Of a DNA stretch of 37,335 nucleotides, positions 8,653 to 37,335 are shown piece by piece (within the stretch, counting starts at the first letter, position 1; each line of letters opens with the position of its first letter). The notes under the pieces were generated by a model. It was not told the origin of the DNA. It searched no databases and was given only the letters and a program-made list of their open reading frames with translations. A program made the translations under genes and the position numbers. This DNA comes from Deltaproteobacteria bacterium (GTDB taxonomy: Bacteria > Desulfobacterota > Binatia > Binatales > Binataceae), in the NCBI GenBank assembly GCA_027317185.1, contig DAHVFB010000022.1:1-37335 (forward strand), given 5' to 3'.

Positions 8653-8861
8653 ATGTTTGCCGTGATACAGGCTACAAAAATCGAACTTCGGCTACCGAGT
8701 TGTGTCCTCCCTGTGACCTACCGGAACACCTGACCGGATTGGCTGCCGATGTTGACAATGGATGGTAGCTTTGGGGCTGATATGGAGCCCATGCGACGTA
8801 AGCTATCTACATATCCGGTTTGATCGTGGTAATATTGAATTAGACCCTGGGAGAGAACGCC

Positions 8862-17897: not shown

Positions 17898-17973
17898 GCG
17901 AAGCGAATGGGTCCCGGATCCGGGATTCTTCGCTGCGCTCAGAATGACAACCTAACTTGTGCAGAGTTCCTTA
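17861..17973 (-). mobile_element. MITE-like element, copy A
   Basis: 113 bp from TA to TA. The ends are inverted repeats of the GGAACCTCTGCACAAG type (here slightly diverged), with an inner long hairpin centred on cggatccg. It is the reverse complement of copy B at 27545-27658, with about six substitutions and one deleted base. It overlaps the end of the YceI gene and supplies its stop codon. No coding capacity; it would need a transposase supplied in trans. Flanking TA is what IS630/Tc1-type elements leave. Confidence 0.85.
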
Positions 17974-18039
17974 GCTGGGTCGCGACCTCCGTACTACCGA
18001 CCGGCGCCGCGTTCACCCCCGCTCATGGGGCCGCATCCG

Positions 18040-18074
18040 CCGGTGCATATATCCGTGGTATATCTGCGCACCGG
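18040..18074. promoter_or_regulatory. Imperfect palindrome upstream of the P450 gene
   Basis: ccggtgc at 18040-18046 and its complement gcaccgg at 18068-18074 enclose a second AT-rich pairing (atatat against atatct). The site lies about 90 bases before the P450 start and could be a repressor operator of the kind that controls many catabolic P450 genes. No regulator gene is adjacent. Confidence 0.3.
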
Positions 18075-18163
18075 TGATCGGCGATGCAGTCCGCGCGATG
18101 GCCGGCGCCGCGCGGGCGCGCCTCGCGCGGTGCGGATTTCACGCCGAACGAAAGGGGTTGGAT

Positions 18164-19390: not shown

Positions 19391-19492
19391 TGGCGGACTC
19401 ATCCGGACCGGGAGGGAATGCATAGATAACGCGCCGCGCGATCGTGATAGCTTGGCGCGCGAACCACGCCGCCGGGGGGCGCCGGCCATTCA

Positions 19493-22520: not shown

Positions 22521-22858
22521 TCGACGAAGCGATCGAGCAGATCGAACGCAGCGGGCTGCGGGTCGGCGAGTCCCTCGTCTATCTTGTCCAGGGCGCGCTC
22601 TATCTCCAACTCGGCGGCGCCGATGCGCAGTCGGCGGCCGAGGCGAGCATGCGCAAATCGATCGATGTCGCGCGCCGCCAGGCGTCGCGGACCGCCGAGC
22701 TGCGCGCCACGGCGAGCCTCGCGCGCCTGCTCGACAAACAAGGTCGCCACGAGGAGGCGCGTACGATGCTGGGCGTAATTTACAATTGGTTCACCGAGGG
22801 CTTCGGCATCGTCGACCTGAAAGACGCCGGTGCGCTGCTCGGCGAATTGGCCGAATAG
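22450..22858 (+). pseudogene. C-terminal TPR tail of the interrupted cyclase regulator
   Basis: Last part of the same regulator, back in the first frame after a missing base near 22450. It reads YWKIAAADALGHTGAAREGL, KLIDEAIEQIERSGLR, SLVYLVQGALYLQLGG, MRKSIDVARRQASRTAELRA, SLARLLDKQGRHEEARTML, and the usual family ending YNWFTEGFGIVDLKDAGALL before TAG at 22856. The family-typical C-terminus shows that the whole gene spans 19493-22858, about 1120 codons. The two shifts cancel (+1 then -1). Confidence 0.8.
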
Positions 22859-22875
22859 CTAATAGCTATTCGGCC
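22849..22875. terminator. Perfect 12-bp hairpin between convergent genes
   Basis: ggccgaatagct (22849-22860), loop aat, agctattcggcc (22864-22875). The hairpin includes the stop codon of the cyclase regulator and lies 80 bases from the end of the leftward amidohydrolase gene. Perfect pairing and position suggest a two-way terminator, although no T-run follows. Confidence 0.6.
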
Positions 22876-22955
22876 GCACCGGTCCGCTCTTGCCCATGCT
22901 CAGGGCTGAGCACGCTTGGCTATCCGCTATGCCGATCGGCGCCGCGCGCGACGAT

Positions 22956-24227
22956 TCATGCCGCCCTGGCCGCGGCTTTGCCCGGCGTCAGATGGCATTC
23001 GACGAATTTGCCGTCTTTCATCACTACGTCGAGCTTGGCGCGGTCCTGAAGCACCGTGATGTCCTTGACCGGATCGCCGTTGACCACGATCAGATCGGCG
23101 AGTTTGCCCGCTTCGATCGTGCCGAGTTCGTCGCCCATCCCGAGCAGTTCAGCGCCGTTGCGGGTCGCCCACGTGATCACCTCGAGCGCCGGAATTCCCG
23201 CGCCGTTGACATATGCCGCGAGCTCTTTGGCGTAGTCGCCATGCGGCATCGCGGAGGTGCCGAAGTCGTCGCCTATCACTATCTTCACGCCCGCCGCCTG
23301 GGCCCTCGGTAGCGTCAGGTACGAATGCTCGAGGCCGCGCGTCATCTCCTCGACGCCCGGAAACGACGCCTTGCCCTCGCGCCGTTTCTGTTCCGCCATC
23401 ATGTACGGAAAATACAGGCTCGGCACCAGGAACGTCCGCTGCTCGGCCATCCGCTCGATACATTCGTCGTCCATCTGGTCGCCGTGATCGATCACGTCGA
23501 GCCGCGCGTCGAGCGCCGCCATGATCCCGCGTTTCGAGATAATGTGCCCGCGAATCTTCTTGCCGCGTTCGTGCGCGGTGTCGGACGCGGCTTTCATCTC
23601 CTCGAGCGTCATCGTCATCACGTCGGCCGGCCACGCCAGGCCGTGACCGCCGGTCGGGTAGAGCTTGATGATGTCGACGCCTTGCTTGATTTCGTCACGC
23701 ACCGCTTTGCGGAATTCGTCGGGTCCGTCACAGATTAAACCGAGTCCCTCCATCTGCATTTTCCACCAGCTCGGATGGAAGTCGACGGAATCGCCGGTCG
23801 TCACCACGTCGCGTCCGCCGGCCATGAAGCGCGGTCCCGGGATCAGGCCCTGGTTGATCGCGCGTTTGAGCGTCACGTCGATATTGTGCAGCGTGCCCGC
23901 GCCGACCGCGCCGGTGAAGCCGCAGCGCAGCAGCAGTTCGGCGTTTTTCGCGGCGATCAGCGTCAGCATCGTCGGCGGATGCTTCATGTCGAGGTCGAAT
24001 AGCGTGCCGATATTGTCGTAGGCGACGTGGTAATGGCACTGGATCATTCCGGGCATCAGCGAGCGCCCGGCCACGTCATAGACGACGTCGTTGGCGCCCG
24101 GCTTAGGTGCGTCGCCGTTGGTCGCGACCGCCGCGATGCGATTGTTTTCGACCACCACCGTGGCGTTTTTCCGCGGCGCGTTTGCGCCGTCGATCAGATT
24201 CGCCCGCCGCAAGAATATCCGTCCCAT
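22956..24227 (-). CDS. Metal-dependent amidohydrolase (imidazolonepropionase-like)
   Basis: 423-residue cytoplasmic amidohydrolase of the subfamily with imidazolonepropionase-like and prolidase-like members. It has a small beta-sandwich (IFLRRANLIDGANAP, VVVENNRIAAVA) around a metal TIM barrel. The metal motifs are HxH in QCHYHVAYDN (His65, His67), the Lys in DIIKLYPTGGHG that is carbamylated in this group, HERGKKIRGHI, DVIDHGDQMDD and GDDFGTSAMPHGDY. The C-terminus has the usual GTIEAGKLADLIVVNGDPVK. The ATG at 24227 is preceded by GGAGG at seven bases; an upstream in-frame ATG at 24281 would add an unlikely leader. It is divergent from the alpha/beta hydrolase, with 285 bases between, probably a shared control region. 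Substrate unknown: cyclic amides or N-acyl compounds are usual. Confidence 0.93.
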   Translation of the reverse strand: MGRIFLRRANLIDGANAPRKNATVVVENNRIAAVATNGDAPKPGANDVVYDVAGRSLMPGMIQCHYHVAYDNIGTLFDLDMKHPPTMLTLIAAKNAELLLRCGFTGAVGAGTLHNIDVTLKRAINQGLIPGPRFMAGGRDVVTTGDSVDFHPSWWKMQMEGLGLICDGPDEFRKAVRDEIKQGVDIIKLYPTGGHGLAWPADVMTMTLEEMKAASDTAHERGKKIRGHIISKRGIMAALDARLDVIDHGDQMDDECIERMAEQRTFLVPSLYFPYMMAEQKRREGKASFPGVEEMTRGLEHSYLTLPRAQAAGVKIVIGDDFGTSAMPHGDYAKELAAYVNGAGIPALEVITWATRNGAELLGMGDELGTIEAGKLADLIVVNGDPVKDITVLQDRAKLDVVMKDGKFVECHLTPGKAAARAA

Positions 24228-24512
24228 TGCGATTTCCTCCGCTTGCGCCTGTGCGAGCCGCGATCGCCGGCCCGCAGCCATATTCGCTTATCCGGCAACC
24301 GCGCCGTCCATGTCAAACATCGCATGGCCCGTCGTTTCCACGGCCGCAACGCTTTCGCGCGCCGTCGCCGCGCCCTTGTCGATCCGTGCAAAACCGCGCA
24401 GGCTGGTATATATCCAATGCTTGAGAGGCGCGCACGCCTGAGCCAACGAATCTAATCGCGGCCCGGCGGATCGCTCGATTTCGTCCGTGCCGCGCAGCAG
24501 GGAGACCATTCG

Positions 24513-25307
24513 ATGCCGTACGCTGAAAATAACGGAACCAAAATTTTCTACGACATTCACGGGCAGGGAACGCCAATCGTCTTTCTCCATCCGTGGACGA
24601 CCAATGGCTATATCTGGTACTACCAGATTTTCCCGTTCGCCCGCACCAACCATGTGATAGCCATTGACCATCGCGGCCACGGACGCTCGGACAAGCCCAA
24701 AAGTGGCTATTCGATCCAGGAGCATGCGCGCGACGTCAAGGCGGTGCTCGACGCGGAAAAGATCGATCGGGCGGTGCTGGTCGGCAATTCGATCGGCGGC
24801 ATGATCGCGATGCAGTTCACGCTCGACAATCCCGGCCGTGTGCTCGGGCAGGTCATCCTGAGTTCCGGCACCGGACTCGGCGAAGGCATGCCCAAAGAGG
24901 CCGCCGCGGCGTTTAAGAATGATTTCGCAGGCACCTTCAGCGCGCTGCTGGAGGGCGCCGTCTCTGCGAAATCGAAGCGCGAGCGTCCGGAGATCCTCGA
25001 AGTAATGAAGAGTCACTTTCAGGTCCAGTCGAATTTCCCAAAACATGTATTCGACTCGTCGATGGCCGATCCTAACGGCGTTTTCGGCTGGAATATCAAG
25101 AACCAGCTTTCGAGTATCCGCACGCCGACGATCGTGATCGCGGGCGCAGAAGACAACGCCACGCCAGTCGCCGCGAATAAGTTTCTCGCCGACAATATCC
25201 CGGGCGCGAAGCTCAGCGTAGTCAAGGACGTTGGCCATTTCCATCAGTTGGAAAAGCCGCTCGAATTCAACGCGGCACTCAAGGAATTTGTCGCCGGCCT
25301 GCGTTAG
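24513..25307 (+). CDS. Alpha/beta hydrolase
   Basis: 264-residue serine hydrolase close in form to 3-oxoadipate enol-lactonases and related esterases. Seen: TKIFYDIHGQGTPIVFLHPW (oxyanion region), VIAIDHRGHGRSDKP, the nucleophile elbow VLVGNSIGGMIAM (Ser93), the acid in IVIAGAEDNATP (Asp214) and the base in KDVGHFHQLEKP (His242). All three catalytic residues are present and the length is normal. The ATG at 24513 follows AGGGAG at good spacing. It diverges from the amidohydrolase and converges with the SnoaL-like gene, in a block of small-molecule catabolic genes, so an ester or lactone in that pathway is a reasonable but unproven substrate. Confidence 0.93.
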   Translation: MPYAENNGTKIFYDIHGQGTPIVFLHPWTTNGYIWYYQIFPFARTNHVIAIDHRGHGRSDKPKSGYSIQEHARDVKAVLDAEKIDRAVLVGNSIGGMIAMQFTLDNPGRVLGQVILSSGTGLGEGMPKEAAAAFKNDFAGTFSALLEGAVSAKSKRERPEILEVMKSHFQVQSNFPKHVFDSSMADPNGVFGWNIKNQLSSIRTPTIVIAGAEDNATPVAANKFLADNIPGAKLSVVKDVGHFHQLEKPLEFNAALKEFVAGLR

Positions 25308-25327
25308 ATAATCGACTGAATAGGCCA

Positions 25328-25361
25328 GAGGCGGGATATGGGGTGTTCCATGTCCCGCCTC
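25328..25361. terminator. 14-bp hairpin between convergent genes
   Basis: gaggcgggatatgg (25328-25341), a six-base loop, ccatgtcccgcctc (25348-25361); all pairs match except one G-U. It stands between the alpha/beta hydrolase (plus) and the SnoaL-like gene (minus) and would serve both. No T-run on either side. Confidence 0.65.
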
Positions 25362-25435
25362 ATTCGTTGCGGATTCCCGATGCGTCCCTCCCGCGTCGCC
25401 CGTCCGATGCGACGTACGTGGACACCGAAACTATT

Positions 25436-25888
25436 CTACGCTGCCCAGCCTTTGGCGTACGGCGCGGCCATCCGGCCAATCGCCCGTAGATGCTGGAACT
25501 TCCACTCGCCGTTGACCTTTACGTAATCGTCGTCATAGCGGGCCGCGAGCCATAGCGCGCGATTGCCCTTGCGAAAGGTGAACGGCCCGAGCAGGTACCA
25601 CGAACCCTTGGCGCGATCGCCGGCGACCTCGATTATCGGGTTCATCACGTTATGCTGCGAGAAGCTGATGCGCTCCTGAAAGGATTGAAACAGCGCGCGA
25701 ATCGCCGCATGCCCCTGATGGCTCCCGAGGTCGGCGCCCTCCCAGATACCGTCCTCGGCGAACAGCGTCGTGATCAGGTCGGGATTGTGCTTGTCGTCGC
25801 AGATTGCGCAGTAGCGCGCCTTCAGCCGCTTGATCGCCTCGATATCCTCGATCCGGGTAATCCGCGCTTCGAGTTCCGCATTGTCCAT
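25436..25888 (-). CDS. SnoaL-like / NTF2-fold protein
   Basis: 150-residue NTF2-fold protein of the SnoaL_4 type. The opening (EARITRIEDIEAIKRLKARY, then CAICDDKH) is the usual N-terminal helix, followed by LITTLFAEDGIWEGADLGSH, GHAAIRALFQSFQERISF, QHNVMNPIIEV and WLAARYDDDYVKVNGEWKF. Members act as small isomerases, dehydratases or cyclases, or simply bind ligands; they are common beside catabolic amidohydrolases and CoA transferases. ATGs at 25894 and 25888 are both possible; I chose 25888 because GAGG then lies nine bases upstream rather than three. It follows the MDR oxidoreductase on the same strand with a 76-base gap, so the two may be cotranscribed. Confidence 0.88.
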   Translation of the reverse strand: MDNAELEARITRIEDIEAIKRLKARYCAICDDKHNPDLITTLFAEDGIWEGADLGSHQGHAAIRALFQSFQERISFSQHNVMNPIIEVAGDRAKGSWYLLGPFTFRKGNRALWLAARYDDDYVKVNGEWKFQHLRAIGRMAAPYAKGWAA

Positions 25889-25964
25889 ACTCATATTCCT
25901 CGCGAGGGTTTATCTATTACTCACTCGTCGCCGTGGCAATACTAAGTCGCCGCCCTGGCGATAG

Positions 25965-26969
25965 CTATATCCGGATACATACCTTGCCGAAATGCACGCC
26001 GCTCTCGAGATAGCGGTAGGCGGCCGGCGCCTCGGCGAAATCGAACGTGCGATCGATTACCGGGCGCAGTTGTGCGGTCTCGATCGCGCTATTCATCGCC
26101 TCGAACATATCGCGCGATCCGACCCGGATGCCCTGAAAGCAGATGCTCTTGAGCAGGATCGGGATCGGATTGAATTCGCCACCGAAGCCGGTCAGCAGTC
26201 CGATCAGGCTGATCCGGCCGCCCGGCCGCACCGCCGCCAGCGAATTCGCCAGCGTGCCGGCGCCACCCACTTCGACCACGTGGTCGACGCCGCGCCCGCC
26301 GGTCAACTCGGCCGCGCGCTTACCCCATTCGGGCGTGGTGCGATAGTTGATCAGCTCGGCCGCGCCGAGTCCGCCCAGCCGCGCCAGCTTGGCGTCGCTG
26401 CTCGAGGTCGCAATCACCCGCGCGCCGGTCATCCGCGCGAACTGCAGCGCGAAAATCGAGACTCCGCCGGTGCCCATCACCAGCACCGTTTCGCCCGCGC
26501 GAAGCTGCCCGAGCGTGATCAGCGCACTCCACGCCGTTACCGCCGCGCAGGGCAGCGCCGCCGCCTCTTCATATGCAAGATGGCCCGGGTAGTGCACCAG
26601 CCCGTCGGCGTCGAGGACCACGTATTGCGCCAGCACCCCGTCAATGTCGCCGCCCAGCGCGGTCGGCAGATGCCGTCCGATTTCACCGCCGAGCCAGCTC
26701 TGCGTGAAGATCGGCGCGACGCGATCGCCGGCCCGTACGCGCGTGACACCGGCGCCGACTTCGACCACGTCGCCCGCGCCGTCGGAGAGCGGAATCCGCG
26801 ATCCGGCGGCATAACCCAGTCCGCCGTTCGCAATAATCAGGTCGCGATAATTGAGCGAAGCCGCGCGCATGCGAAGGAGCACCTGTCCGGGCCCCGGTTT
26901 GGGCGTCGGCCGCTCGGTCAGCTTGAGCCCGTCAATCCCGCCGCGCTGGCCAATTTCATATACCTGCAT
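25965..26969 (-). CDS. Zinc-independent MDR oxidoreductase (quinone reductase-like)
   Basis: 334-residue medium-chain dehydrogenase/reductase. The N-terminal GroES-like domain reads PKPGPGQVLLRMRAASLNYR, GAGDVVEVGAGVTRVRAGDR and ALPCAAVTAWSAL. The Rossmann motif is VLVMGTGGVSIFALQFA (about 163-179), followed by VIATSSSDAKLARLGGLGA and GVDHVVEVGGAGTLANSL. The structural-zinc cysteines of alcohol dehydrogenases are absent, so it resembles the quinone-oxidoreductase and enoyl-reductase branch that uses NAD(P)H. Length and motifs are complete. The ATG at 26969 has GAGG at about eight bases. Probably transcribed with the SnoaL-like gene. Confidence 0.93.
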   Translation of the reverse strand: MQVYEIGQRGGIDGLKLTERPTPKPGPGQVLLRMRAASLNYRDLIIANGGLGYAAGSRIPLSDGAGDVVEVGAGVTRVRAGDRVAPIFTQSWLGGEIGRHLPTALGGDIDGVLAQYVVLDADGLVHYPGHLAYEEAAALPCAAVTAWSALITLGQLRAGETVLVMGTGGVSIFALQFARMTGARVIATSSSDAKLARLGGLGAAELINYRTTPEWGKRAAELTGGRGVDHVVEVGGAGTLANSLAAVRPGGRISLIGLLTGFGGEFNPIPILLKSICFQGIRVGSRDMFEAMNSAIETAQLRPVIDRTFDFAEAPAAYRYLESGVHFGKVCIRI

Positions 26970-27149
26970 TTGCGCCTCGCCGAGTTTGAATTGATGGCCG
27001 CAAGGATCGCAGCCGCAAATCTGGTCTATTGCGCTATGCGCATACAGTCAAACGACCGGCCTTGAATGCATCGTCTGCGCTTCGCGCTGGCCGCCATGAT
27101 GGCGTCGTATTGACCGCGCCGGCCTGTGCAGCGCGCGCGCATTGCGCTA

Positions 27150-27547
27150 TATGGCTCTGCCACGGAACTGGCGCCGGAATTTCTACATCAACCTGCCGCT
27201 CGGTGCGATCACCTTCATGATGGTCTCGCTTCGTCCACGATCCGCCGTTCATGCGCGAGCGCCGCGCGCGCGGCGGCCACGTCGATTATCTCGGCATCCT
27301 CTCCCTGGTGGTCAGTAATGCGTCGCCGCTTCAGCCCGGCTCGCCGGGCTTCAATTATCTGCCCCAGATCGTCACCGGGCAGAAGCAGGGTCTCGGCATG
27401 ATCTACGGCGCGATTCAGGCGCAGGCCGCGATGCTCTCGTTCAACGATATCAACCGCCTGCTGACCGTGCGATGGTCGTGCTGATTCCGTCCCTTGCTGC
27501 TGCTCCAGCGCAATCGCGCGGCCAGCGGCGGCGTTTCCGGCCACTAA
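27150..27547 (+). pseudogene. DHA2-family (EmrB/QacA-like) efflux gene, internally deleted remnant
   Basis: Pieces of a 14-helix multidrug efflux protein in successive frames. RNWRRNFYINLPLGAITFMM is the family's W-R-x-x-F-x-I-N-L-P loop. HDPPFMRERRARGGHVDYLG with ILSLVV is the following cytoplasmic loop and helix start. The sequence then jumps to a C-terminal segment, GMIYGAIQAQAAMLSFNDIN with RLL, and in the next frame LLLLQRNRAASGGVSGH to a TAA at 27545. Frames switch near 27228, 27470 and 27495, and most of the membrane helices are missing. The TAA overlaps the left end of MITE copy B. The gene is dead. Confidence 0.7.
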
Positions 27548-27658
27548 GGAACCTCTGCACAAGTCAGGTTGTCATTCTGAGCGCAGCGAAGAATCCCGGA
27601 TCCGGGACCCATGCGCTGCGCTCAGGGTGACCGCAGAGCCTTGTGCAGAGGTTCCCTA
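27545..27658 (+). mobile_element. MITE-like element, copy B
   Basis: 114 bp from TA to TA. The terminal inverted repeats are identical over 16 bases (GGAACCTCTGCACAAG on the left and its complement on the right). Inside is a second, nearly palindromic core: gtcattctgagcgcagcga on the left arm, cgctgcgctcagggtgac on the right, centre cggatccg. About 94% identical to copy A (17861-17973) in the opposite orientation. It begins on the stop codon of the efflux pseudogene and ends about 150 bases before the next gene. No coding capacity. Confidence 0.87.
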
Positions 27659-27807
27659 ACCGACGCATCGTCCTTGCGGGCCGGTTCCGCCGATTGACCG
27701 GAGAGTCCGCTTTTTGCTTTACGGCGCGGCTCAACTGGACTAACAAGGAATTCTGACGCGACCGCGGCCGGTCCGGCGCGGATCACCCCGATCGAAGGAG
27801 AAATCGC

Positions 27808-28941
27808 ATGACGAGCACGGTTACCACCAAACCGATCATCTCCGCGGACTCCCATATCATGGAGCCGCCCAACACCTATCTCGCGCATATCGACAAAAAA
27901 TATAAGGACACCGCGCCGCGCGTCGTTTGGGACGATAACCGCGGCGACATCTACGTGATCGACGGGATGACCGAGACCATCCCGATGGGCCTGGTGGCGG
28001 CCGCCGGTAAAAAGGCCGAAGAGTTGGCGGGCGCCGCGGCGCGCGCCAAGTTCGACGAATTGCATCGCGGCGGATGGGATCCCGAGGCGCGCATTGGCGA
28101 CCAGGAGATCGACGGCATCGCGGCCGAGATCATCTATCCGAGCGTCGGCATGATCCTCTGTAACCATCGCGATCCGGATTATAAAAAGGCCTGCTTCGAC
28201 GCCTACAATCTCTGGATCGCCGAGTTCTGCTCGCCCCATCCCGAACGTTTGATCGGCCTCGGCCAGACCGCGATGCGCTCGCCGGCCGAGGGAATCGCGG
28301 ACCTCGACCGGATCAAGGCGATGGGTCTGCGCGGTGTGATGATGCCGGGTTTTCCGGTGATGGAGGACTACGACAGCCCCATCTATGACGAATTCTGGGC
28401 CGCGGCGATCGAAAAGCGCATGACGCTTAGCTTCCACATACTCACTTCCAACGAGGGCGTCGCCCGCGCCTCGCGCGGCCCGCGCATCAACGCCTTCATG
28501 TCGATCATCCGCGGCAACCAGGACATCATCGGCACGTTTATCTTCAGCGGCGTATTCGAGCGCAATCCGGCGCTCAAGATCGTCTGCGTCGAAGCCGACG
28601 CCGGCTGGGCGCCCCATTTCATGTACCGGATGGATCACGCCTTCGAGCGCCATCGCTACTGGATGACCAGCGGCAAGCTGTCGAAGATGCCGAGTGAGTA
28701 TTTCCGCGAAAATGTCTATATGACGTTTCAGGACGACTGGGTAGCCTTCAAGATGAAGGACATGTGCAATCCGCGCCGGCTGATGTGGGCCAACGACTTT
28801 CCGCACAGCGATTCGACCTGGCCGCGCTCGCAGGAGTTGCTCGCCAAGCATACTATAGGCTTGACCACAGAGGAAAAGGACTGGCTGCTGCACGACAACG
28901 TGGCCGAACTTTACGGACTCACGGCGCCGGCGCGCGCCTGA
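27808..28941 (+). CDS. Amidohydrolase family 2 (ACMSD-like TIM-barrel hydrolase or decarboxylase)
   Basis: 377-residue protein of the amidohydrolase-2 superfamily, which includes decarboxylases such as ACMSD and gamma-resorcylate decarboxylase as well as hydrolases. The metal motif is IISADSHIMEP (Asp14, His16). WDPEARIGDQEIDGIAAEI and YPSVGM follow, then LIGLGQTAMRSPAEGIADL, GLRGVMMPGFP, the barrel His in TLSFHILTS, ERNPALKIVCVEADAGWAPH and the late Asp in MWANDFPHSDSTWP. ATG at 27808 has AAGGAG at good spacing. The cyclase-family gene follows 38 bases later with its own ribosome-binding site, so they form an operon. Decarboxylation or hydrolysis of a ring compound is likely; the substrate is not readable. 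Confidence 0.93.
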   Translation: MTSTVTTKPIISADSHIMEPPNTYLAHIDKKYKDTAPRVVWDDNRGDIYVIDGMTETIPMGLVAAAGKKAEELAGAAARAKFDELHRGGWDPEARIGDQEIDGIAAEIIYPSVGMILCNHRDPDYKKACFDAYNLWIAEFCSPHPERLIGLGQTAMRSPAEGIADLDRIKAMGLRGVMMPGFPVMEDYDSPIYDEFWAAAIEKRMTLSFHILTSNEGVARASRGPRINAFMSIIRGNQDIIGTFIFSGVFERNPALKIVCVEADAGWAPHFMYRMDHAFERHRYWMTSGKLSKMPSEYFRENVYMTFQDDWVAFKMKDMCNPRRLMWANDFPHSDSTWPRSQELLAKHTIGLTTEEKDWLLHDNVAELYGLTAPARA

Positions 28942-28979
28942 TCCTGATTCACCAGATCGAGCGAAGGAGCATATCAGCG

Positions 28980-29945
28980 ATGGCCGAAGTGAAGAATTTT
29001 ACCGACGTACTCAAGGGCTTGCCGAAGAACTGGGGCCGCTGGGGTGCGGACGACGAGATCGGCAGCCTCAATTTCCTGACCAGCGCCGAGGTTCTGCGCG
29101 GCGTCAAGGCGGTGCAGCAGGGCAAGGTGTTCATGCTCGGCGTTCCGGTGGCGCGGCCGGAGGGCGATCCGCTTCATCCGATCCGCGCGCAGCCGATTCA
29201 TACGATGACCGCCGACGAAGGGTTTTACATCAGCGGACGGATCAAGCCCTTTCCCGGCGGCCTCAAATACTCCGATGACGTCGTCACCATGTTCCCGCAG
29301 GGCACTACCCAGTACGACGCGCTGGGCCATGCCTGGTATGGCGAAAAACTCTACAATGGGTATGATCCCAAAACCACGATCGGCGGCCTGCAGAAGTGTT
29401 CGATCAAGCCGATCGCCGAACACGGCGTGATCGGCCGCGGCATCCTGATCGACGCGGCGCGCTACCGCGGCAAGGAGCATCTCGATCGCGACGAGGGCTT
29501 CTCACTCGATGACCTGCTCGGCGCGGCGAAGAAGCAGGGCGTTACGATCGAGAAGCACGACATCATCGTGCTGCATACGGGATGGCTCGATCGCTTCTAC
29601 AAGGAGGGGCAGAAGGCCCTGTTTCCCGAGGGCGAGCCCTTCGACGAGCCGGGCCTTCAGTACAGCAAGGAGCTGGTCGAGTGGTGGCACAAGATGGAGA
29701 TTCCGTCGATCACCGCCGACACGATCGGATGCGAGCAGGGTCTCAACAAGGAGACTGGCGGACTCGGCATCCTGCATTCGGCGCTGCTCTGCAACCTCGG
29801 CGTGATCTTCAACGAGATCGTCTGGCTCAAGGATCTGGCGGCCGACTGTGCCAAGGACGGCCAATATACTTTCCTGTTCGCCGGCGCGCCGCTCAAGCTG
29901 GTCTACGGATGTGGTTCGGCGGTGAATCCGATCGCGATCAAATAG
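28980..29945 (+). CDS. Cyclase-family hydrolase (kynurenine formamidase-like)
   Basis: 321-residue member of the cyclase family, metal-dependent hydrolases that include kynurenine formamidase and isatin hydrolase. It begins NWGRWGADDEIGSLNFLTSA, typical of the longer bacterial members. The core metal motif region is GTTQYDALGHAWYG (about 108-121), a variant of the short-form HxGTHxDxPxH in which Gln replaces the second His; Asp and the last His are kept. IAEHGVIGRGILIDAARYRG, KHDIIVLHTGWLDRFY and ITADTIGCEQGLNKETGG follow. ATG at 28980 is preceded by AAGGAG. Second gene of an operon with the amidohydrolase; the pair may open a ring or hydrolyse an amide in one pathway. Confidence 0.92.
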   Translation: MAEVKNFTDVLKGLPKNWGRWGADDEIGSLNFLTSAEVLRGVKAVQQGKVFMLGVPVARPEGDPLHPIRAQPIHTMTADEGFYISGRIKPFPGGLKYSDDVVTMFPQGTTQYDALGHAWYGEKLYNGYDPKTTIGGLQKCSIKPIAEHGVIGRGILIDAARYRGKEHLDRDEGFSLDDLLGAAKKQGVTIEKHDIIVLHTGWLDRFYKEGQKALFPEGEPFDEPGLQYSKELVEWWHKMEIPSITADTIGCEQGLNKETGGLGILHSALLCNLGVIFNEIVWLKDLAADCAKDGQYTFLFAGAPLKLVYGCGSAVNPIAIK

Positions 29946-30018
29946 TCAGTCGGTCGGCGCCCGCCGCGCGCCTGGGTGGGTAATAGCCGGTGTTGGCGGC
30001 TGTGGCTATGACATAGGG

Positions 30019-30059
30019 CAGGGCGGTGAACGCGGGTGACACTCGCGATCACCGCCCTG
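30019..30059. terminator. Hairpin between convergent genes
   Basis: cagggcggtga (30019-30029) pairs perfectly with tcaccgccctg (30049-30059); after one mismatch four more pairs extend the stem inward. It lies between the cyclase-family gene (plus) and the CoA-transferase gene (minus), each ending within 75 bases. A short AT-rich run (aataattt) follows on the plus side. Confidence 0.68.
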
Positions 30060-30091
30060 AATAATTTCGGACGCAAGCGCCGCGCCGCCGA

Positions 30092-31309
30092 TCAGGATTG
30101 CGGACTGACGCCGCGCTCCAAGGCGTCAATCGCACTTTCGGAATAGCCGAGTTCGCGGAGCACTTCACGCGTATGCTGCCCGATTTCGGGGGCGGCCGTG
30201 GGCGTGCGCTTGGTCACCCCGGAGACGAATACGGGACTGTTTACCGTGTCGAAAACGCCGATGCCCGGGTAGTCAATCTTGATAAAGGCGTCGGCCGCGC
30301 GCATCTGCGGATCGCTGACCACCTCGTCGAGCCTGGGCAGCGGTGCCCACTTGACGTCGTTGCGCTTGAAAATCGTGCGCCACTCGGCCAGCTCGCGGGT
30401 CTCGAACTGGGATTGCAGGATCGCATAGAGCGCACCCGCATTTTGCGCCCGCCCGGCGTTGTCGGCGAACAAATCGTTGGTCGCCAGTTCCGGCTGCCCG
30501 AAGGCCGCGCATAGCCGCGGAAACTCGTTGTCGGGATCGATTTGAACGAGCAGAAACAGCTTGCTGTCGCGCGTCAGGTACGCGGCCGTCAGCGGGTTGG
30601 GCGGATGTTTGCTCTCGCCGCGCTGCGGAAACGTTGCGTTGCAGAACTTGGCCTGAATATCGCACGCGTTGGCCCACGCTCCGCTGGCCAGCAGCGAGGT
30701 GGTCACCCGCGATCCGCGCCCCGTCCGTTCGCGCTGGTAGAGGCCGAGCATGATCGCCCCGAACATCGACATCGAGGTCGGATGATCGCCCATCCCGGGA
30801 CGCGGTCCGCCCGGTGTCCCGTCGAGCCCGGTCACCGACATCATCAGGCCCGACCGTGCCCAGTAGGCCAATGCATCGAAGGCCGGATCGTCGGCGTCCT
30901 CGCCGGCGTCGCCATAGCCGGTCAGGTGGGCGTAAATCAGCCGCTCGTTGACGGCAGCCAGCTCTTCCCACGAGAGCCCGAACTTATCGAGCAGCGGGCG
31001 CTGATAGTTGGTCAGGAAGACGTCGGCGGTGCGCACCAGGCGGATCAGAGCCTCGCGTGCGGCCGGATCAGCGAGATCCAGCGCGACGCTCTTCTTGTTG
31101 CGGTTGGTGAGAATCCAGCACCAGTCGACTTCCGAGTGGGCCGAGCCCGGGAGCCTCGAAAACAGCCGCCACAGGTCGCCGCCGCCCGGCCGTTCGATTT
31201 TGATCACGTCCGCGCCAAAGTCCGACATCACGGTGGCCGCCGCTGGCCCCGCGACGTAGGTTCCGCAGTCAATCACGCGAATGCCGGATAGAAGATTGCG
31301 ATCGTCCAT
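30092..31309 (-). CDS. Family III CoA transferase (CaiB/BaiF)
   Basis: 405-residue class III CoA transferase, which moves CoA between carboxylic acids through an aspartyl-CoA intermediate. Seen: LLSGIRVIDCGTYVAGPAAA, MSDFGADVIKIERPGGGDLW, NRNKKSVALDL, ADVFLTNYQRPLLDKFGLSW and LIYAHLTGYGDAGEDADD, then the catalytic Asp145 in PAFDALAYWARSG. RPGMGDHPTSMSMFGAIMLG and the C-terminal KWAPLPRLDEVVSDPQMRA complete the usual pattern. The ATG at 31309 is preceded by a strong AGGAGG. It converges on the amidohydrolase/cyclase operon. CoA activation of the acid made by that operon is a natural hypothesis. Confidence 0.94.
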   Translation of the reverse strand: MDDRNLLSGIRVIDCGTYVAGPAAATVMSDFGADVIKIERPGGGDLWRLFSRLPGSAHSEVDWCWILTNRNKKSVALDLADPAAREALIRLVRTADVFLTNYQRPLLDKFGLSWEELAAVNERLIYAHLTGYGDAGEDADDPAFDALAYWARSGLMMSVTGLDGTPGGPRPGMGDHPTSMSMFGAIMLGLYQRERTGRGSRVTTSLLASGAWANACDIQAKFCNATFPQRGESKHPPNPLTAAYLTRDSKLFLLVQIDPDNEFPRLCAAFGQPELATNDLFADNAGRAQNAGALYAILQSQFETRELAEWRTIFKRNDVKWAPLPRLDEVVSDPQMRAADAFIKIDYPGIGVFDTVNSPVFVSGVTKRTPTAAPEIGQHTREVLRELGYSESAIDALERGVSPQS

Positions 31310-31743
31310 TCAGAAATCCTCCTGATCGGTCGGACACGACAGGCTGTAATACACCGATGAGTCGCCTGCAACGCACGCGACGCCTCAATAATGACCCAAC
31401 GCCGCCTTTGCGCGCAAAGCGGCATGCTTTCCCGCCCCCCGATTCCGCTTGTGCACGGTACTATCGCGATAAATAGCCTTTAATCCGTTTCTAAGGCCCA
31501 ATTAGGATACCGCGGCTCATGTCATGATTGATCTTCATCATTGCCACCATTAAGATTCGGACGCTGAAAAGACTCGAAGGTTGCATTTTGGCCTGCGTCT
31601 ATGACGTTACGCTATCTTATCGAGCTGCACGCTTTGGAATGTGGTATTTCGGCATTGGCGCGCGAGCTTTGGCTCGACGAAGCACGTCCCGTACGCAGCA
31701 TTGCGTTTTATGCCGCACTCATTGACTCCCTGAAGAGGTGAAG
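31310..31743. other. Intergenic leader of the CEMIP-like gene
   Basis: About 430 bases between the divergent CoA transferase and the large exported protein. Its left half shows nothing coding and must hold two divergent promoters, neither of which I can place with confidence. The right part contains a possible small gene (31601-31741). Confidence 0.5.
31601..31741 (+). CDS. Possible 46-residue small protein coupled to the CEMIP-like gene
   Basis: An ATG at 31601 opens a frame of 46 codons ending in TGA at 31739-31741, two bases before the ATG of the large gene. The product is helix-like and rich in Leu, Ala, Glu and Arg: MTLRYLIELHALECGISALA, then RELWLDEARPVRSIAFYAAL and IDSLKR. The close spacing would allow translational coupling. 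Against it, no ribosome-binding site precedes the ATG, and the frame is open only from 31568, so it could be the tail of a lost gene or chance. Not recognised. Confidence 0.28.
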   Translation: MTLRYLIELHALECGISALARELWLDEARPVRSIAFYAALIDSLKR

Positions 31744-34700
31744 ATGGACCGCGATATCCGTAGAGGAAAGGATGCATTCAAGTCCTCTTTGGTCTATATG
31801 CCGCTCAAATTCACGAGTCTGATGGTTGCTTTAATGGCGCTCAGCTTGCTCAACGTGCGCGGGGCGTATGCGGATTGCTCGGCCCTGATGACCGGAGCAG
31901 CGCTTTCGATCTGCGTGTCGCCCGCTGGAAATTCCAATAAGCCGGTCAGGATTGGTTCGGGAAATTGCGCGGGAAAGGCGTATTACGTCGACCAGTCGTT
32001 CGTCAATCTGGGCGACATCACGATTGAAAAAGGCGCGACGTTATCCTTTCCCAACAGCGGCAATCTGTCGCTGCAGACCGCCAACATCTTTATTCACGGC
32101 ACTTTGCAGGTCGGCAACTCGAGCTGTCCAATCGGATCGGGTACCGGCAACGCGGGCAATACGGTGACGATCCAGTTGACCGGGGTGCGACCCGATAAAT
32201 TGCCCTTCGTTCCGGATTGCAGAAATCGCGACGGCGAAGCGTCGCGTTTCGACAAGGGTATTCTGGTCTGCCAGGACGGCACGCTCAATATGTACGGCGC
32301 CAAGGGAGTTCCGCCCAACGGCGTCAATTGGACGACCTTGCTCAAGCCGGCGGGCGATCCCACCCTTTATGGTGCCGGCAAGGGCCTTGGTGCGCCGGTG
32401 ACCGAACCCGACGCGCGGACAATCCATGTCACCGACAATGTGATCGACGCGGCCAGCGGCTGGAAGCAGGGTGACTGGATCGCGATCGCGACGACCAGCT
32501 ACTCGCCGTTCGAGACCGAAATCGCGCAACTCGCGGCGGATCCGCAGGTCGACAGCATCAATGGCGGATACCTGCTGACCCTGGTTCAACCGCTGCAATA
32601 CTACCATTTCGGCGGGCTCGCTCCTTCCTCCGCCGATCCCTCGAATCCGGCGTGCAAAAATTCCGCCGGCACCGTGCTGCCGGCCTTCTTCTGCGATCCG
32701 GCCAGCAAGAACTTTGGCGTTGACGAGCGCGCCGAGGTCGGTTTGCTCAGCCGCAATATCAAGCTGACCTCATCCACTCTGCCCTTCTGGATGGCGAATA
32801 ATAGCTATTCGACAAGTAGTGCGATTCAGGTACGAATCGGCGCCCAGGTGTATCAGTTTTCCACCACGGCTGGCGGTACCAGCGGAAGCCGGCAGCCCGC
32901 GTCGTGGCCCACCGGGAATGGCGCCACAGTATGCGACAACGGCACCGGCGACACCTGCGCCGGCGGCGTGCTATGGGCCAATGCGGGGCTCTTCGACCAG
33001 GCCTGGGGCGGCGAAACCAGGGTGCTGCATGGTTTCGCGGCGGTGAATATCCAGGGTGTCGAGATCGCGGGCTACGGCAAGGATTCGCTGGGCAGCTACC
33101 CGATCCACTTCCACCAGGACGGGATATTGAAAACCTCTCCGCTGGTCGATTCCAACAGTATACATCACAGTTACAACAAATGTGTTACGGTCCACTCGAC
33201 GACTAACCTCAACATAACCAATAACGTCTGCGTGCGCGCCGACGGCCATCTCTTTTACGAAGAGATCGGCGACGAAGATAAAATTACATTTCAGGGTAAT
33301 TTGGGGCTGGGCGCGACCAGTAACAACTTCGGCATCTCGCCCGCCAGCGCGATTCCGGCCTATTGGTGGAGCGGCGATAACCTTGCCTATTCGCTCGGCT
33401 ACGACGGCCTGAATGTTCCCGACGTCGATAGCCAGACAAATCCGTCGCACGGATCGTGCATGGTGCCGGATGGGAACGGCGGCAACGATCTGATTAATGC
33501 GCCGACTTATCCGAAAGAAAATACCAAATGCACCACCGAACAACTATATACCGAACCGGCGAGCGGATTCTGGATCGTCAACCCGACCACCAACATGATC
33601 GGCAATTCGATCGGCGGATGCCAGGGCGTCGGTATCGGCTACTGGTACGTGCCGCCGCCCAGCGGACGGCTGCCTTTCGTGCCGGTCGGCACCTTTCTGA
33701 ACAACAGCGCGCACGCCTGCTATGACGGCTTTTTCGGCGAGGCTTTCAATACCTGGACCGGCCAGCTGCATCCGCTGCAGGTCGGGCAGCCGGGCGACGA
33801 GACTAACGCATTGATTGCGACCTTTAACGGCCTCAATGCCTCGCGCAACCGTTACCTGGGCGCCTGGATCCGGCCCGATTGGTTTGTTTTCAATAATGCC
33901 CGTCTGGCCACCAATCGCGACGATATCTCGATCGTTACGGCTGGCGGCGCCGACGGCAGCGCGCCGGGCGTATGGTCGATGTTCGCGAATTCCGTGGTGG
34001 TGGGCGTTAGCCAGAATAATGTCGATCGGTTCGGTCCGTGCCCGGACGTGAATTCGGCCTACCCGGCCGGCGGCGGCAAGCGTGGCTGTATCGATCAGAC
34101 GCCGGCGGCGTTCGATCAGATTGGTCTCGGCTATCCCGATCCGACTTTCAACTTCAGTGGATTCTTTATCTACGACGGGCCGCCGCGCATCGTCGACGAT
34201 CACTTCGTTAATTTCAATGTCGATATAACTCCCCATCTGACGACCGCGGATAACACCTTTCTTGCCAACTACAAATCCTCGCATGGCGGGTTCATCTACG
34301 AGGGCGACGCCGCGCTCGGCTGGTTCAAGAACAACCAGAGTGCCTATCCGGCGACGACCACTACCGAGGGGCTGCTGTTTACCAACGTCGATTTCCGTCA
34401 TCAGATATTTACCGAATTGGTCAATCTGGGGGATTTTGACGACGGCGACAAGAATACTGTGATAGTCGATCGCGACGGGTCGCTGACCGGGTTGTCAGTC
34501 GTCGATTCAACTAGCAACACGCTCATTCCCGGTGAATATCCGATCTCGCTCAACAACCTGCCCTTCAATGTTGCCTCCAACGCGATCGACGAATGTCTCG
34601 CGACTGGCGGTCAGAACGCCGTCCTGGAGGGCCGGCCGACTTCGCTGATTTCCGCGGGGCAGGTGGGCACGCTCGAATTTCAGGCGCTCTGGCCCGAGAA

Positions 34701-35898
34701 GGGGTTTAAACCCCCGCCGGCCGATAACGTGCCCCCGCTCGATGAGAGATACGAGCAATGGATCACCTTCACCAAGGATACGGTCGATTATCCGACGCTC
34801 TACCCAGGCCAGCACTGGAGCATGGATCTTCACGGGCGCAATAATAACGGCGTCTGGGAACCCAAGGTTCAAAACGGATATGGCTATACGATCAGCGTGC
34901 CTAAGACGATCGATGCGCATAAGACCAATCAGGATATCGCGGGCATTCCCAAGGTCGTGGATATCGGGCTCACCGACGCACATATCAGCCCGACTCAGAA
35001 TAATCACACCTTCTACGTGCGCGTTTCGCTGGTCTACAACGGTGTGAATGGACCGCCGGACAAGCTCAAAATCACGCGTGGCTTCAGATCCTGGGGATCG
35101 CCCACCGGCATCCTCAGTCCGCCATTTTTCAATGACCCGCTGGGCCAGTACTGGATGCGCACGCAGTGCTGGAATCTCGACACGCAACAGCCGCTTTTCA
35201 AGGACTGCCCAGGCAAGGGGCTCAAGTTGCCCAATGGCAGCGGCGACACGGCCAGTTGCGACACGCCGGCCGATCCGAATCTCAAGATCAGACTCGAGAC
35301 CGTGGTTGATCGCGAGGATCCGAACAGGTCGAAGCGGTTATGCGTCTACCAGCCCTTTGAACTGACTAATGCTGGCACCGACATTACTAAAGTTACTCCC
35401 AGTAGTGATAGCTATTACTACAACAACGGCATATTGACGTTCTACGTGCGCCAGGACGACCTCAACACGGAGGGCCAATCGCCCGTCGGCGAATGTCTCA
35501 CGCCGACCAAGCAGGCCGGCTGCGGCACCTCCTGCCCCACGTTCCAGAATCCGGCGCCGGACTGCTCGTGCAGTAACTTCAATCCGTGCCCTGACGTTGC
35601 GGACGGCGAAGCATACTACGCCTGTCCGGTCGAAGGCTGTGTTGACTATCGCGTCACCGTCATGGATTCGAACTATCAGCCGGCGGCCATCGATTGCGAC
35701 ACAAATCCAACGCTCTGCACCTCGGCCTATACGATGACCCCGCCGGCCAACCAGAATCTGTTGACGGTCGCGACCAATCCGCTGCCCGGCACGCCGTTCA
35801 CGCGCCTGGAGCAGAACAGCGCCCAGGGACTGCCGCACGCCGTGCCGTCGGGGGGCCCGACGCCGAGTTGCCCGATCACGACTATCGGGGATCCGTAA
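31744..35898 (+). CDS. Exported G8-domain protein resembling CEMIP/TMEM2
   Basis: 1384 residues, exported. The signal segment is LKFTSLMVALMALSLLNVRG with AYA cleavage near 44. A G8-like domain follows (about 85-235: DITIEKGATLSFPNSGNLSL, IFIHGTLQVGNSSCPIG, ILVCQDGTLNMYGAKG). Then, in the order I recall for human CEMIP/TMEM2: GWKQGDWIAIATTSYS (about 239), AEVGLLSRNI (330), GYGKDSLGSYPIHFH (443), NSIHHSYNKCVTVHSTTNL (471), GHLFYEEIGDED (501), SGFWIVNPTTNMIGN (607), FSGFFIYDGPPRI and DGDKNTVIVDRDGSLTGL (about 899). That family depolymerises hyaluronan or supports its breakdown. A module at about 349-413 (TTAGGTSGSRQPASWP, VLWAN) looks like a phage-fibre or carbohydrate-binding insert. The C-terminus is Cys-rich (CGTSCPTF, CSCSNFNPCPD, CPVEGC). 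Start: ATG 31744 has AGAGGTG six bases upstream. The active site and substrate are unproven. Confidence 0.82.
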   Translation: MDRDIRRGKDAFKSSLVYMPLKFTSLMVALMALSLLNVRGAYADCSALMTGAALSICVSPAGNSNKPVRIGSGNCAGKAYYVDQSFVNLGDITIEKGATLSFPNSGNLSLQTANIFIHGTLQVGNSSCPIGSGTGNAGNTVTIQLTGVRPDKLPFVPDCRNRDGEASRFDKGILVCQDGTLNMYGAKGVPPNGVNWTTLLKPAGDPTLYGAGKGLGAPVTEPDARTIHVTDNVIDAASGWKQGDWIAIATTSYSPFETEIAQLAADPQVDSINGGYLLTLVQPLQYYHFGGLAPSSADPSNPACKNSAGTVLPAFFCDPASKNFGVDERAEVGLLSRNIKLTSSTLPFWMANNSYSTSSAIQVRIGAQVYQFSTTAGGTSGSRQPASWPTGNGATVCDNGTGDTCAGGVLWANAGLFDQAWGGETRVLHGFAAVNIQGVEIAGYGKDSLGSYPIHFHQDGILKTSPLVDSNSIHHSYNKCVTVHSTTNLNITNNVCVRADGHLFYEEIGDEDKITFQGNLGLGATSNNFGISPASAIPAYWWSGDNLAYSLGYDGLNVPDVDSQTNPSHGSCMVPDGNGGNDLINAPTYPKENTKCTTEQLYTEPASGFWIVNPTTNMIGNSIGGCQGVGIGYWYVPPPSGRLPFVPVGTFLNNSAHACYDGFFGEAFNTWTGQLHPLQVGQPGDETNALIATFNGLNASRNRYLGAWIRPDWFVFNNARLATNRDDISIVTAGGADGSAPGVWSMFANSVVVGVSQNNVDRFGPCPDVNSAYPAGGGKRGCIDQTPAAFDQIGLGYPDPTFNFSGFFIYDGPPRIVDDHFVNFNVDITPHLTTADNTFLANYKSSHGGFIYEGDAALGWFKNNQSAYPATTTTEGLLFTNVDFRHQIFTELVNLGDFDDGDKNTVIVDRDGSLTGLSVVDSTSNTLIPGEYPISLNNLPFNVASNAIDECLATGGQNAVLEGRPTSLISAGQVGTLEFQALWPEKGFKPPPADNVPPLDERYEQWITFTKDTVDYPTLYPGQHWSMDLHGRNNNGVWEPKVQNGYGYTISVPKTIDAHKTNQDIAGIPKVVDIGLTDAHISPTQNNHTFYVRVSLVYNGVNGPPDKLKITRGFRSWGSPTGILSPPFFNDPLGQYWMRTQCWNLDTQQPLFKDCPGKGLKLPNGSGDTASCDTPADPNLKIRLETVVDREDPNRSKRLCVYQPFELTNAGTDITKVTPSSDSYYYNNGILTFYVRQDDLNTEGQSPVGECLTPTKQAGCGTSCPTFQNPAPDCSCSNFNPCPDVADGEAYYACPVEGCVDYRVTVMDSNYQPAAIDCDTNPTLCTSAYTMTPPANQNLLTVATNPLPGTPFTRLEQNSAQGLPHAVPSGGPTPSCPITTIGDP

Positions 35899-35916
35899 TG
35901 CGCGCGCCGCGCGCAT
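35898..35916. terminator. GC-rich perfect palindrome after the CEMIP-like gene
   Basis: atgcgcgcg (35898-35906), central c, cgcgcgcat (35908-35916), starting on the last base of the stop codon. It lies between convergent genes, so a terminator role is plausible; loop geometry is tight and no T-run follows. Confidence 0.4.
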
Positions 35917-35988
35917 GCAATCAAGACCTGCGCGCCGCGCGTAGCGCGCCTCGGGGATCGGGCGGGCCGTCGCCGCGTGCGGTCCCGA

Positions 35989-36999
35989 TCAGCCCTCGAC
36001 CTTGAGCTTCACCGCCAGCGCGACTTCCTCCGCGCTGCCGATATAGACCGGCACGCGCTCGTGGATGCGCTCGGGGACGACCTCGAGTGCGCGCCCGCGC
36101 CCGGTCGAGCCGGCGCCGCCGGCGTGCTCGGCCAGCATCGATAGCGGGGCGACCTCGTACATCAGGCGCAGCTTGCCCTTGGGCGCGCCGCCGGCGGTTA
36201 CCTCGCTGGGATAGAAGAAGAGTCCGCCGTTGAGCAGGCATCGATGGAAGTCGCCGACGAAGGCGCCGCAATAGCGCAGCGAATAGCCCCCGCCCTCGGC
36301 CTTCGGTCCGCACAGCCGCTCGATCAGCGCGCGCGTGCCCGGATTCCATCGCGCGGCGTTGGCCTGATTGACGGCGTAGGTCTTGCCGCGCTCGGGCATG
36401 CGGATTTTTTCCTGCCAGAGTACGAATTCGCCGATGCCGCGGTCGAGCACGAAGGCGTTGACGCCGTCGCCCGCCGTCCATACCAGCATCGTCGCCGGCC
36501 CATAGAGCGCGTAGCCGGCCGCAATCTGCGCGCTGCCGGCCGCGAGCACGTCCTCGATACCTTCGCCGTGGCCGGGCCGCCGCCGGCGCACCGCGAAAAT
36601 CGTCCCGAGCGCGCCATTGATATCGGTGTTCGAGGAGCCGTCGAGCGGATCATAGAGCAGCGCATACGAGTCGTTGGTGCATTGCGCCCGGGCGTGCCGC
36701 GGCTCCTCCATCTCTTCCGAGATCAGCGTGCAGACCGGACCGCCGCCGGAAAAGGTGTCGACGAAGACGTTGTTGGACCATTCGTCGAGCTTTTCGACGC
36801 GCTCGCCATGCACGTTGATCGATCCGCTATGGCCGAATCCGCCCTTGAGCGCGGCCCCCGCCAGTTCATGCGCGACGCGCTTTACCGCGAGCGCGACCTG
36901 CTCGAGCGTCACGATCAGGCCGGGATCGATCTGCTGCCGCGTGCGTAGATAACGATCGAGGGTGATCAGCGATGAGTATTTTACGAATGGATTGGCCAT
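35989..36999 (-). CDS. fbp: Class 1 fructose-1,6-bisphosphatase
   Basis: 336-residue class 1 FBPase, which removes the 1-phosphate from fructose 1,6-bisphosphate in gluconeogenesis or the Calvin cycle. Seen: TLEQVALAVKRVAHELAGAA, SGSINVHGERVEKLDEWSNN, CTLISEEMEEPRHA (metal Glu pair), the catalytic metal motif LLYDPLDGSSNTDINGALGT, GYALYGPATMLVWTAGDGV, YCGAFVGDFHRCLLNGGLFF and KLRLMYEVAPLSMLAEHAGG. The ATG at 36999 is preceded by GGAG eight bases upstream; an in-frame ATG at 37068 would add a leader without support. It diverges from a gene that begins at the window's right edge. Works in the same sugar-phosphate pool as the transaldolase. Confidence 0.96.
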   Translation of the reverse strand: MANPFVKYSSLITLDRYLRTRQQIDPGLIVTLEQVALAVKRVAHELAGAALKGGFGHSGSINVHGERVEKLDEWSNNVFVDTFSGGGPVCTLISEEMEEPRHARAQCTNDSYALLYDPLDGSSNTDINGALGTIFAVRRRRPGHGEGIEDVLAAGSAQIAAGYALYGPATMLVWTAGDGVNAFVLDRGIGEFVLWQEKIRMPERGKTYAVNQANAARWNPGTRALIERLCGPKAEGGGYSLRYCGAFVGDFHRCLLNGGLFFYPSEVTAGGAPKGKLRLMYEVAPLSMLAEHAGGAGSTGRGRALEVVPERIHERVPVYIGSAEEVALAVKLKVEG

Positions 37000-37020
37000 T
37001 GTTCTCCGCATGCGAACCTT

Positions 37021-37056
37021 CAGCGTGATCCCAGCCGCCAGCGTGATCCGAGCCGC
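37021..37056. repeat. 18-bp tandem duplication upstream of fbp
   Basis: cagcgtgatcccagccgc (37021-37038) is followed at once by cagcgtgatccgagccgc (37039-37056), 17 of 18 bases identical. It lies 22 bases upstream of the fbp start in the divergent intergenic region. The rest of 37000-37319 shows nothing coding that I can support. Confidence 0.6.
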
Positions 37057-37319
37057 GAACCGGCGCACGATCTGGCGCCCACGTCGTTTGCCGGTCTATC
37101 TGATTTGAAAGCATCACGGACCGCAATCGTCAAGGATATCCAAGCGGCGTCAAGCGGCGCGAACTCCAGCTGGCGCCGCGAGATTTTCGCCGCGCGGCGA
37201 TTCCGCCCTGCGCGGCGGTTTTCAACCCGACGGCGATTCGCGGTATGCTGCGAACGCGGCTACGGCGCACCTGGTGCGGCCGCGCGCGCCGGCGTAAGCG
37301 GTGAAGGAGTGGATACACC

Positions 37320-37335
37320 ATGGACATAGGTATTC
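37320..37335 (+). CDS. Start of a gene cut by the window edge
   Basis: ATG at 37320 preceded by GAAGGAG about ten bases upstream; the visible codons read MDIGI before the window ends. The signal is good but five residues do not identify a family. A start of this form is common in NAD(P)-binding Rossmann enzymes such as 6-phosphogluconate dehydrogenase, which would fit fbp and tal, but that is a guess. Confidence 0.45.

Follow-up and report, generated by a model that had tools for sequence, protein, structure and literature searches.

The P0001 Locus

The window analyzed here is a 37,335-nucleotide stretch of DNA from Deltaproteobacteria bacterium (Binataceae; assembly GCA_027317185.1, contig DAHVFB010000022.1). 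It contains an intact open reading frame (ORF) of 1384 codons on the forward strand (31744–35898), and the encoded 1384-residue protein, P0001, is truly homologous to human TMEM2, and so to the CEMIP/TMEM2 family, across its G8 and right-handed beta-helix portion. An AGAGG ribosome-binding site (31734–31738) is spaced 5 nt from the start codon (ATG 31744). The N-terminus, read by eye from the translation, carries a Sec-type export signal with the cleavage end AYA-DC, and P0001 is predicted to be a secreted protein. The initial annotation of this DNA had described an exported protein of this length at this position, which the intact ORF and the export signal bear out. The gene has the following features.

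31744..35898, + strand: P0001 gene, CEMIP/TMEM2-related 1384-residue product (ORF, Pfam, phmmer, ribosome-binding site)
31744..31872, + strand: export signal, residues 1–43, with a long n-region, a hydrophobic core and AYA before D44 (translation reading)
31972..32304, + strand: G8 domain match, residues 77–187, where the beta-helix of TMEM2 begins (PF10162, E = 2e-11; model strands)
32305..32463, + strand: residues 188–240, site of lectin-like domain 1 in TMEM2, domain absent in P0001 (alignment lengths, PF15711)
32776..33000, + strand: 75-residue insertion, residues 345–419, private to P0001 and of low model confidence (alignment, model)
33004..33321, + strand: CEMIP beta-helix core, residues 421–526, including GSYPIHFH, SIHHSYNKCVTVH and GHLFYEE (PF24606, E = 2.3e-35)
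33097..33264, + strand: candidate active-site residues Y452, H455, H457, H484 and E507 (conservation)
33526..33723, + strand: second CEMIP beta-helix stretch, residues ~595–660, with W610, N621, W634 and N654 (conservation)
33865..33873, + strand: W708-I709-R710, conserved Trp and Arg at an equivalent strand position (conservation, DSSP of the model)
34441..34494, + strand: DGDKNTVIVDRDGSLTGL, end of the conserved core, where D902, D909 and D911 correspond to TMEM2 D945, D952 and D954 (phmmer, conservation)
34636..35895, + strand: C-terminal region, residues 965–1384, possibly a distant relation of domain X in TMEM2 (weak profile match)

Homology to Human TMEM2

Two Pfam models match P0001 well above their curated cut-offs: G8 (PF10162) at 2e-11 and 44.3 bits (cut-off 22.9), and CEMIP_beta-hel (PF24606) at 2.3e-35 and 122.7 bits (cut-off 27.3). 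A scan of P0001 against NCBIfam returned no matching model. When P0001 was compared by phmmer with all chains of the Protein Data Bank (PDB), the human TMEM2 ectodomain (8c6i) was the sole match (1.6e-22). P0001 is 31% identical to TMEM2 over 571 aligned residues. A profile of 27 relatives matches the same chain at 4.5e-95 in one main stretch across chain residues 29–803. Eight motifs in P0001 are collinear with TMEM2 segments of the phmmer output; as P0001/TMEM2 pairs, in order, they are GWKQGDWIAIATTSYS / SWKPGDQIVVASTDYS, AEVGLLSRNI / AEVGILTRNI, LGSYPIHFH / MGRYPVHFH, SIHHSYNKCVTVH / SIHHSFSRCITVH, GHLFYEE / GHCFFLE, FWIVNPTTN / FWIAHPNNN, FFIYDGP / FQIYDGP, and DGDKNTVIVDRDGSLTG / DGDKNSIFHDIDGSVTG. 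The sequence comparison was made to TMEM2, and likeness to CEMIP itself is by family membership.

An AlphaFold2 model of residues 44–1243, computed from 90 sequences, shows a continuous beta-helix (predicted local distance difference test (pLDDT) score 82.6; predicted template modeling score (pTM) 0.88). With this model, a Foldseek search of the PDB placed 8c6i on top (2.2e-41, template modeling score 0.56 on the query, 1200 residues). The second match, a Klebsiella K1 capsule-specific polysaccharide lyase (7w1c, 1.1e-7), is about 34 orders behind; phage depolymerases, GH110 enzymes and others follow, with PL6 alginate lyase and polygalacturonases lower in the list. Viral models match P0001 at the level of a tailspike-like beta-helix only. 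The initial annotation had proposed a G8-like N-terminal domain and eight motifs in TMEM2 order, and had argued that this is not a protein with a stray G8 domain. All three points agree with the Pfam match, with the aligned motifs, and with a homology that spans G8 and beta-helix by both sequence profile and fold; the predicted structure likewise finds TMEM2 as its closest match.

The 75-residue insertion (residues 345–419, VYQFSTTAGGTSGSRQPASWPTGNG...) is absent from every relative. It has no Pfam match and matches PHROGs only below significance. A weak look-alike occurs elsewhere in the same genome (38% identity, E 0.02).

The Bacterial Family

P0001 adds one member to a known family, the bacterial branch of which already exists in Pfam and in genome annotation. 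A scan of GTDB representatives yielded 249 stretches encoding relatives, 80 of which were kept, and about 98 bacterial relatives were compared with human TMEM2. By record titles and tree labels, the hosts include Pseudomonadota, Binataceae and "Deltaproteobacteria" metagenome-assembled genomes, Acidobacteriota, Actinomycetota, Chloroflexota, Gemmatimonadota, Bacteroidota, Nitrospirota, Cyanobacteriota and others. The members range from ~785 to 1900 residues. G8 and CEMIP_beta-hel are both present in 35 of the 35 bacterial members scanned, and some members add PA14, CBM6, CBM35, sorting domains of the type IX secretion system (T9SS), or pentapeptides. In the Prokaryotic Genome Annotation Pipeline (PGAP) these products go by the name "G8 domain-containing protein"; one of them, WP_053833714.1, is encoded on a Croceibacterium plasmid. 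We found no discussion of the bacterial members as CEMIP relatives in the literature searched. Since two recent reviews on microbial hyaluronan-degrading enzymes bring up CEMIP solely as a protein of mammals or within a citation, the link between CEMIP and this family seems to have gone unused.

In a maximum-likelihood tree, human TMEM2, a long branch and the sole eukaryotic sequence, stands among mostly compact proteins (27-row set, Shimodaira–Hasegawa-like approximate likelihood ratio test (SH-aLRT) 99), apart from the group of long proteins that holds P0001. A possible separation of the compact bacterial rows from human TMEM2 has a support of 49. The compact members closer to TMEM2 come from Actinomycetota, Chloroflexota, Gemmatimonadota and cyanobacteria, and the best of them are 38–42% identical to TMEM2, compared to 31% for P0001. 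The host genome itself encodes a distant P0001 paralogue (contig C226). Some other genomes of the same family, among them G409, G416 and G396, contain several matches each, and the P0001 family may have expanded in this family of genomes. The family motifs DERAEVALL, GRLGRYPFHTHM and GHNLFFEDGSE also occur at 4880–5300 of an IMG/VR contig (L142, 68.6 kb), and this member is possibly phage-borne.

Lectin-like Domains and the C-Terminal Region

In TMEM2, a lectin-like (GG) domain 1 interrupts the beta-helix, and a domain X and a lectin-like domain 2 are also present (PMC10206443). Lectin-like domain 1 is absent from P0001 and from the bacterial relatives compared. Counted at the point of insertion, human TMEM2 is 143 residues longer than P0001, whereas 93 bacterial rows differ from P0001 by -23 to +23. 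The ILEI model (PF15711) matches the human TMEM2 segment at 1.4e-24 as a positive control and none of the 35 bacterial members scanned, P0001 included. A search for ILEI in the host genome also found nothing, though control genomes were equally silent. The changes R265C, D273N and D286N, and H248N/A303F in mouse TMEM2, have been reported to abolish or reduce activity (PMC10206443, PMC10276149), and all of these residues (R265, D273, D286, H248/A303) lie inside the GG domain that P0001 lacks.

As to lectin-like domain 2, neither ILEI nor a lectin structure matched the C-terminal region of P0001, a result that suggests absence but comes from a search for which there was no positive control. A profile of the C-terminal 420 residues gives a weak collinear match to domain X of 8c6i (3.7e-4), including the DGDKN segment; without DGDKN the value is 2.4, with 8c6i still the only PDB match. 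PF24605 was not matched by P0001 in the Pfam scan, and a separate model of the C-terminal region found no structural match in the fold search. By its profile, the region is possibly a remote relative of domain X.

These results narrow the earlier description of P0001 as a homologue of the whole CEMIP/TMEM2 architecture. What P0001 has in common with TMEM2 is the G8 and beta-helix core; it lacks lectin-like domain 1, the searches for lectin-like domain 2 found none, and the evidence for domain X goes no further than a suggestion. The term "full-length counterpart" is misleading in that much of P0001 consists of long loops, the private insertion and the C-terminal region, and the compact proteins are closer to TMEM2. 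The missing lectin-like domain and the 75-residue insertion had not been mentioned.

A Candidate Active Site

Among the bacterial rows, 45 positions are at least 93% conserved; TMEM2, which covers 44 of them, has the identical residue at 41. Polar residues kept in every bacterial subgroup and in the human protein include (P0001 = TMEM2; TMEM2 numbering is chain index + 82) R329 = R482, Y452 = Y547, H455 = H550, H457 = H552, H484 = H585, E507 = E608, W610 = W666, W634 = W688, W708 = W788, R710 = R790, Y810 = Y874, and D909 = D952. As a check on the numbering, Cys554, called unpaired in the TMEM2 structure paper, falls two residues past H552. Y452, H455, H457, H484, E507, W610, W634, W708, R710 and Y810 are kept at 86–100% in all three bacterial subgroups. 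DSSP analysis of the model, a reading of strands and not of distances, places H455/H457, H484, H502/E507, W610, W634, W708/R710 and Y810 at equivalent places on successive strands.

Two sister proteins, L047 (2721–6602) and L093 (2292–6026), have lost part of this set together. They depart from the 45-position core at 6 and 5 positions, respectively, and at none of the other 39. Both have lost Y452, H455, H484, E507 and W610, and L047 has lost H457 as well. For a set fixed beforehand, the chance of this co-loss would be 1e-7 for L047 and 5e-6 for L093; these figures are optimistic because the set was partly defined by the co-loss and, the two proteins being sisters, they report one event. L047 and L093 are perhaps inactive or of changed mechanism. 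A planctomycete member (L111, 4576–8079) carries R710E, D811Q and G812E together, and these positions may form another set of linked residues.

The authors of the TMEM2 structure were unable to assign an active site (PMC10206443). Judged by conservation and co-loss, Y452, H455, H457, H484, E507 and W610 make up the best candidate for the catalytic site of the family.

Proposed Function of P0001

We consider it moderately probable that P0001 is a secreted, stand-alone right-handed beta-helix, homologous to the CEMIP/TMEM2 core, which acts as an extracellular endo-acting polysaccharide-cleaving enzyme with its cut site at Y452, H455, H457, H484 and E507. One sheet of the beta-helix, lined with the conserved W610, W634, W708 and Y810, would accommodate the glycan chain, which would be cut at this cluster, while a conserved Arg (R710, possibly R329) would neutralize the sugar acid. 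A His/Tyr/Arg-type beta-elimination on a uronic-acid-containing microbial or plant polysaccharide would fit best, and hydrolysis is possible. PL31, a parallel beta-helix family tabulated among hyaluronan lyases, has a catalytic group of His/Tyr and Arg (PMC12254123). We infer polysaccharide cleavage from this parallel, from fold neighbors that include lyases and depolymerases, from the conserved polar set, and from its co-loss.

Several points weigh against a polysaccharide-cleaving P0001. We know of no biochemical evidence for any bacterial member. No conserved neighbors pointing to polysaccharide breakdown were found at the loci compared. The six-residue set was drawn in part from L047 and L093, and these two proteins could have changed their mechanism rather than lost activity. 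Finally, purified human TMEM2 was inactive in one laboratory and active in another (PMC10206443, PMC10474455).

Alternatively, P0001 could be a non-catalytic cell-surface or secreted beta-helix with a glycan-binding, adhesive or structural role, in which the invariant residues hold the fold. Adhesins also use beta-helix folds (PfbA, 4mr0, is among the weak Foldseek matches), Gly or Asn occupies many of the invariant positions, in keeping with coil turns, and two groups found TMEM2 inactive. However, His, Glu, Tyr, Trp and Arg, which make up the most conserved polar set, are unusual at purely structural positions, and part of this set was lost as a unit in one pair of proteins that kept all other core positions. 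For these reasons we regard a non-catalytic role as unlikely.

Still less likely is a strict hyaluronan- or glycosaminoglycan-degrading activity, in which P0001 would act on the substrate of CEMIP/TMEM2. The core homology and the shared invariant residues would be consistent with such a role, but P0001 lacks the GG domain in which the published loss-of-function changes of TMEM2/CEMIP that we found are located, there are no glycosaminoglycan-utilization genes beside P0001, and the recorded hosts, judging from record titles, have no evident source of hyaluronan. We do not expect hyaluronan to be the natural substrate of P0001. That the similarity to CEMIP/TMEM2 is a generic parallel beta-helix resemblance, arisen by convergence or composition, can be rejected with near certainty, since beta-helices do often cross-match (P0001 weakly matches PF13229) but TMEM2 is the only PDB sequence match, leads the next Foldseek match by ~34 orders, and shares eight ordered family motifs and 41 of 44 core residues.

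The bacterial family also bears on the animal proteins: it is disputed whether TMEM2 is itself a hyaluronidase, and the position of its active site has been described as an open question (PMC10206443, PMC10276149, PMC10474455). The main interest of the bacterial family is as a means to locate the active site of CEMIP/TMEM2. In a deep bacterial family that retains the core without the inserted lectin-like domain, candidate catalytic residues can be told apart from targeting domains, and the comparison names a handful of residues to alter in an animal protein reported active, as mouse TMEM2 and human CEMIP have been in cell assays. Bacterial versions should also be easier to express and assay, notably the compact ones, of which the Rubrobacter marinus protein is an example. 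As a tentative idea that we rate somewhat short of probable, the bacterial proteins with the shared core could be beta-helix polysaccharide-cleaving enzymes, Y547-H550-H552-H585-E608-W666 (with R790) could be the catalytic site of TMEM2, and the lectin-like domains could be later additions in animals that direct the core to hyaluronan.

Gene Neighborhood and Contig

The P0001 gene lies alone between genes for a type III coenzyme A (CoA)-transferase and a fructose-1,6-bisphosphatase, both on the opposite strand; other neighbors in the window encode a dehydrogenase and an amidohydrolase. An all-against-all clustering of neighbors at 46 loci gave no recurring neighbor, the clusters being mainly antisense shadows of the P0001-family gene, and the Pfam domains of the neighbors of five relatives were inconsistent. 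In Fangia hongkongensis (L083), proteins with PT-HINT domains are encoded on either side of the family gene (1702–2613 and 8403–9281). A sulfatase gene in the window (3951–6518) was rejected as a partner of P0001, as it lies 25 kb off and beyond the end of the identical contig in another genome. At 6748–8652 the window encodes a protein with bacterial immunoglobulin-like (Big_5) domains and an ice-binding-like domain.

This identical contig is C85 of genome G420, which equals 17913–37335 of the window (100.000% over 19,423 bases) and includes the whole P0001 gene. By assignment, the two genomes belong to the same family but not to the same genus, and the identity begins inside a ~119 bp repeat (17858–17978; second copy 27541–27659). 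Because of this identity across two genera and its start inside a repeat, a contig has probably been binned wrongly, or joined as a chimera, in one of the two metagenome-assembled genomes.

Comparison with Known Systems

Like human TMEM2/CEMIP2 (8c6i) and CEMIP (KIAA1199/HYBID), P0001 has a G8 domain followed by a right-handed beta-helix core, and it has the Y/H/H/H/E/W set and the DGDKN...DxDGSxTG segment in common with TMEM2. Unlike TMEM2, it has a bacterial Sec-type signal, a private 75-residue insertion and a doubtful domain X, with no lectin-like domain 1, no detected lectin-like domain 2 and no membrane anchor seen. Polysaccharide lyases and depolymerases with a parallel beta-helix belong to the same fold class; examples are 7w1c and PL6 alginate lyase from the Foldseek matches, and chondroitinase B from PMC10206443. 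They gave no PDB sequence match with P0001, and the Foldseek matches are at least ~34 orders of magnitude weaker than that of TMEM2. TMEM2 does not preserve the Ca2+ site of chondroitinase B (PMC10206443); the 8c6i structure contains a modeled Ni2+. Bacterial proteins with PF24606 and PF10162 have the same two domains as P0001; among them, P0001 belongs to a long subgroup of ~1400 residues found mainly in Binatota-type and Pseudomonadota genomes.

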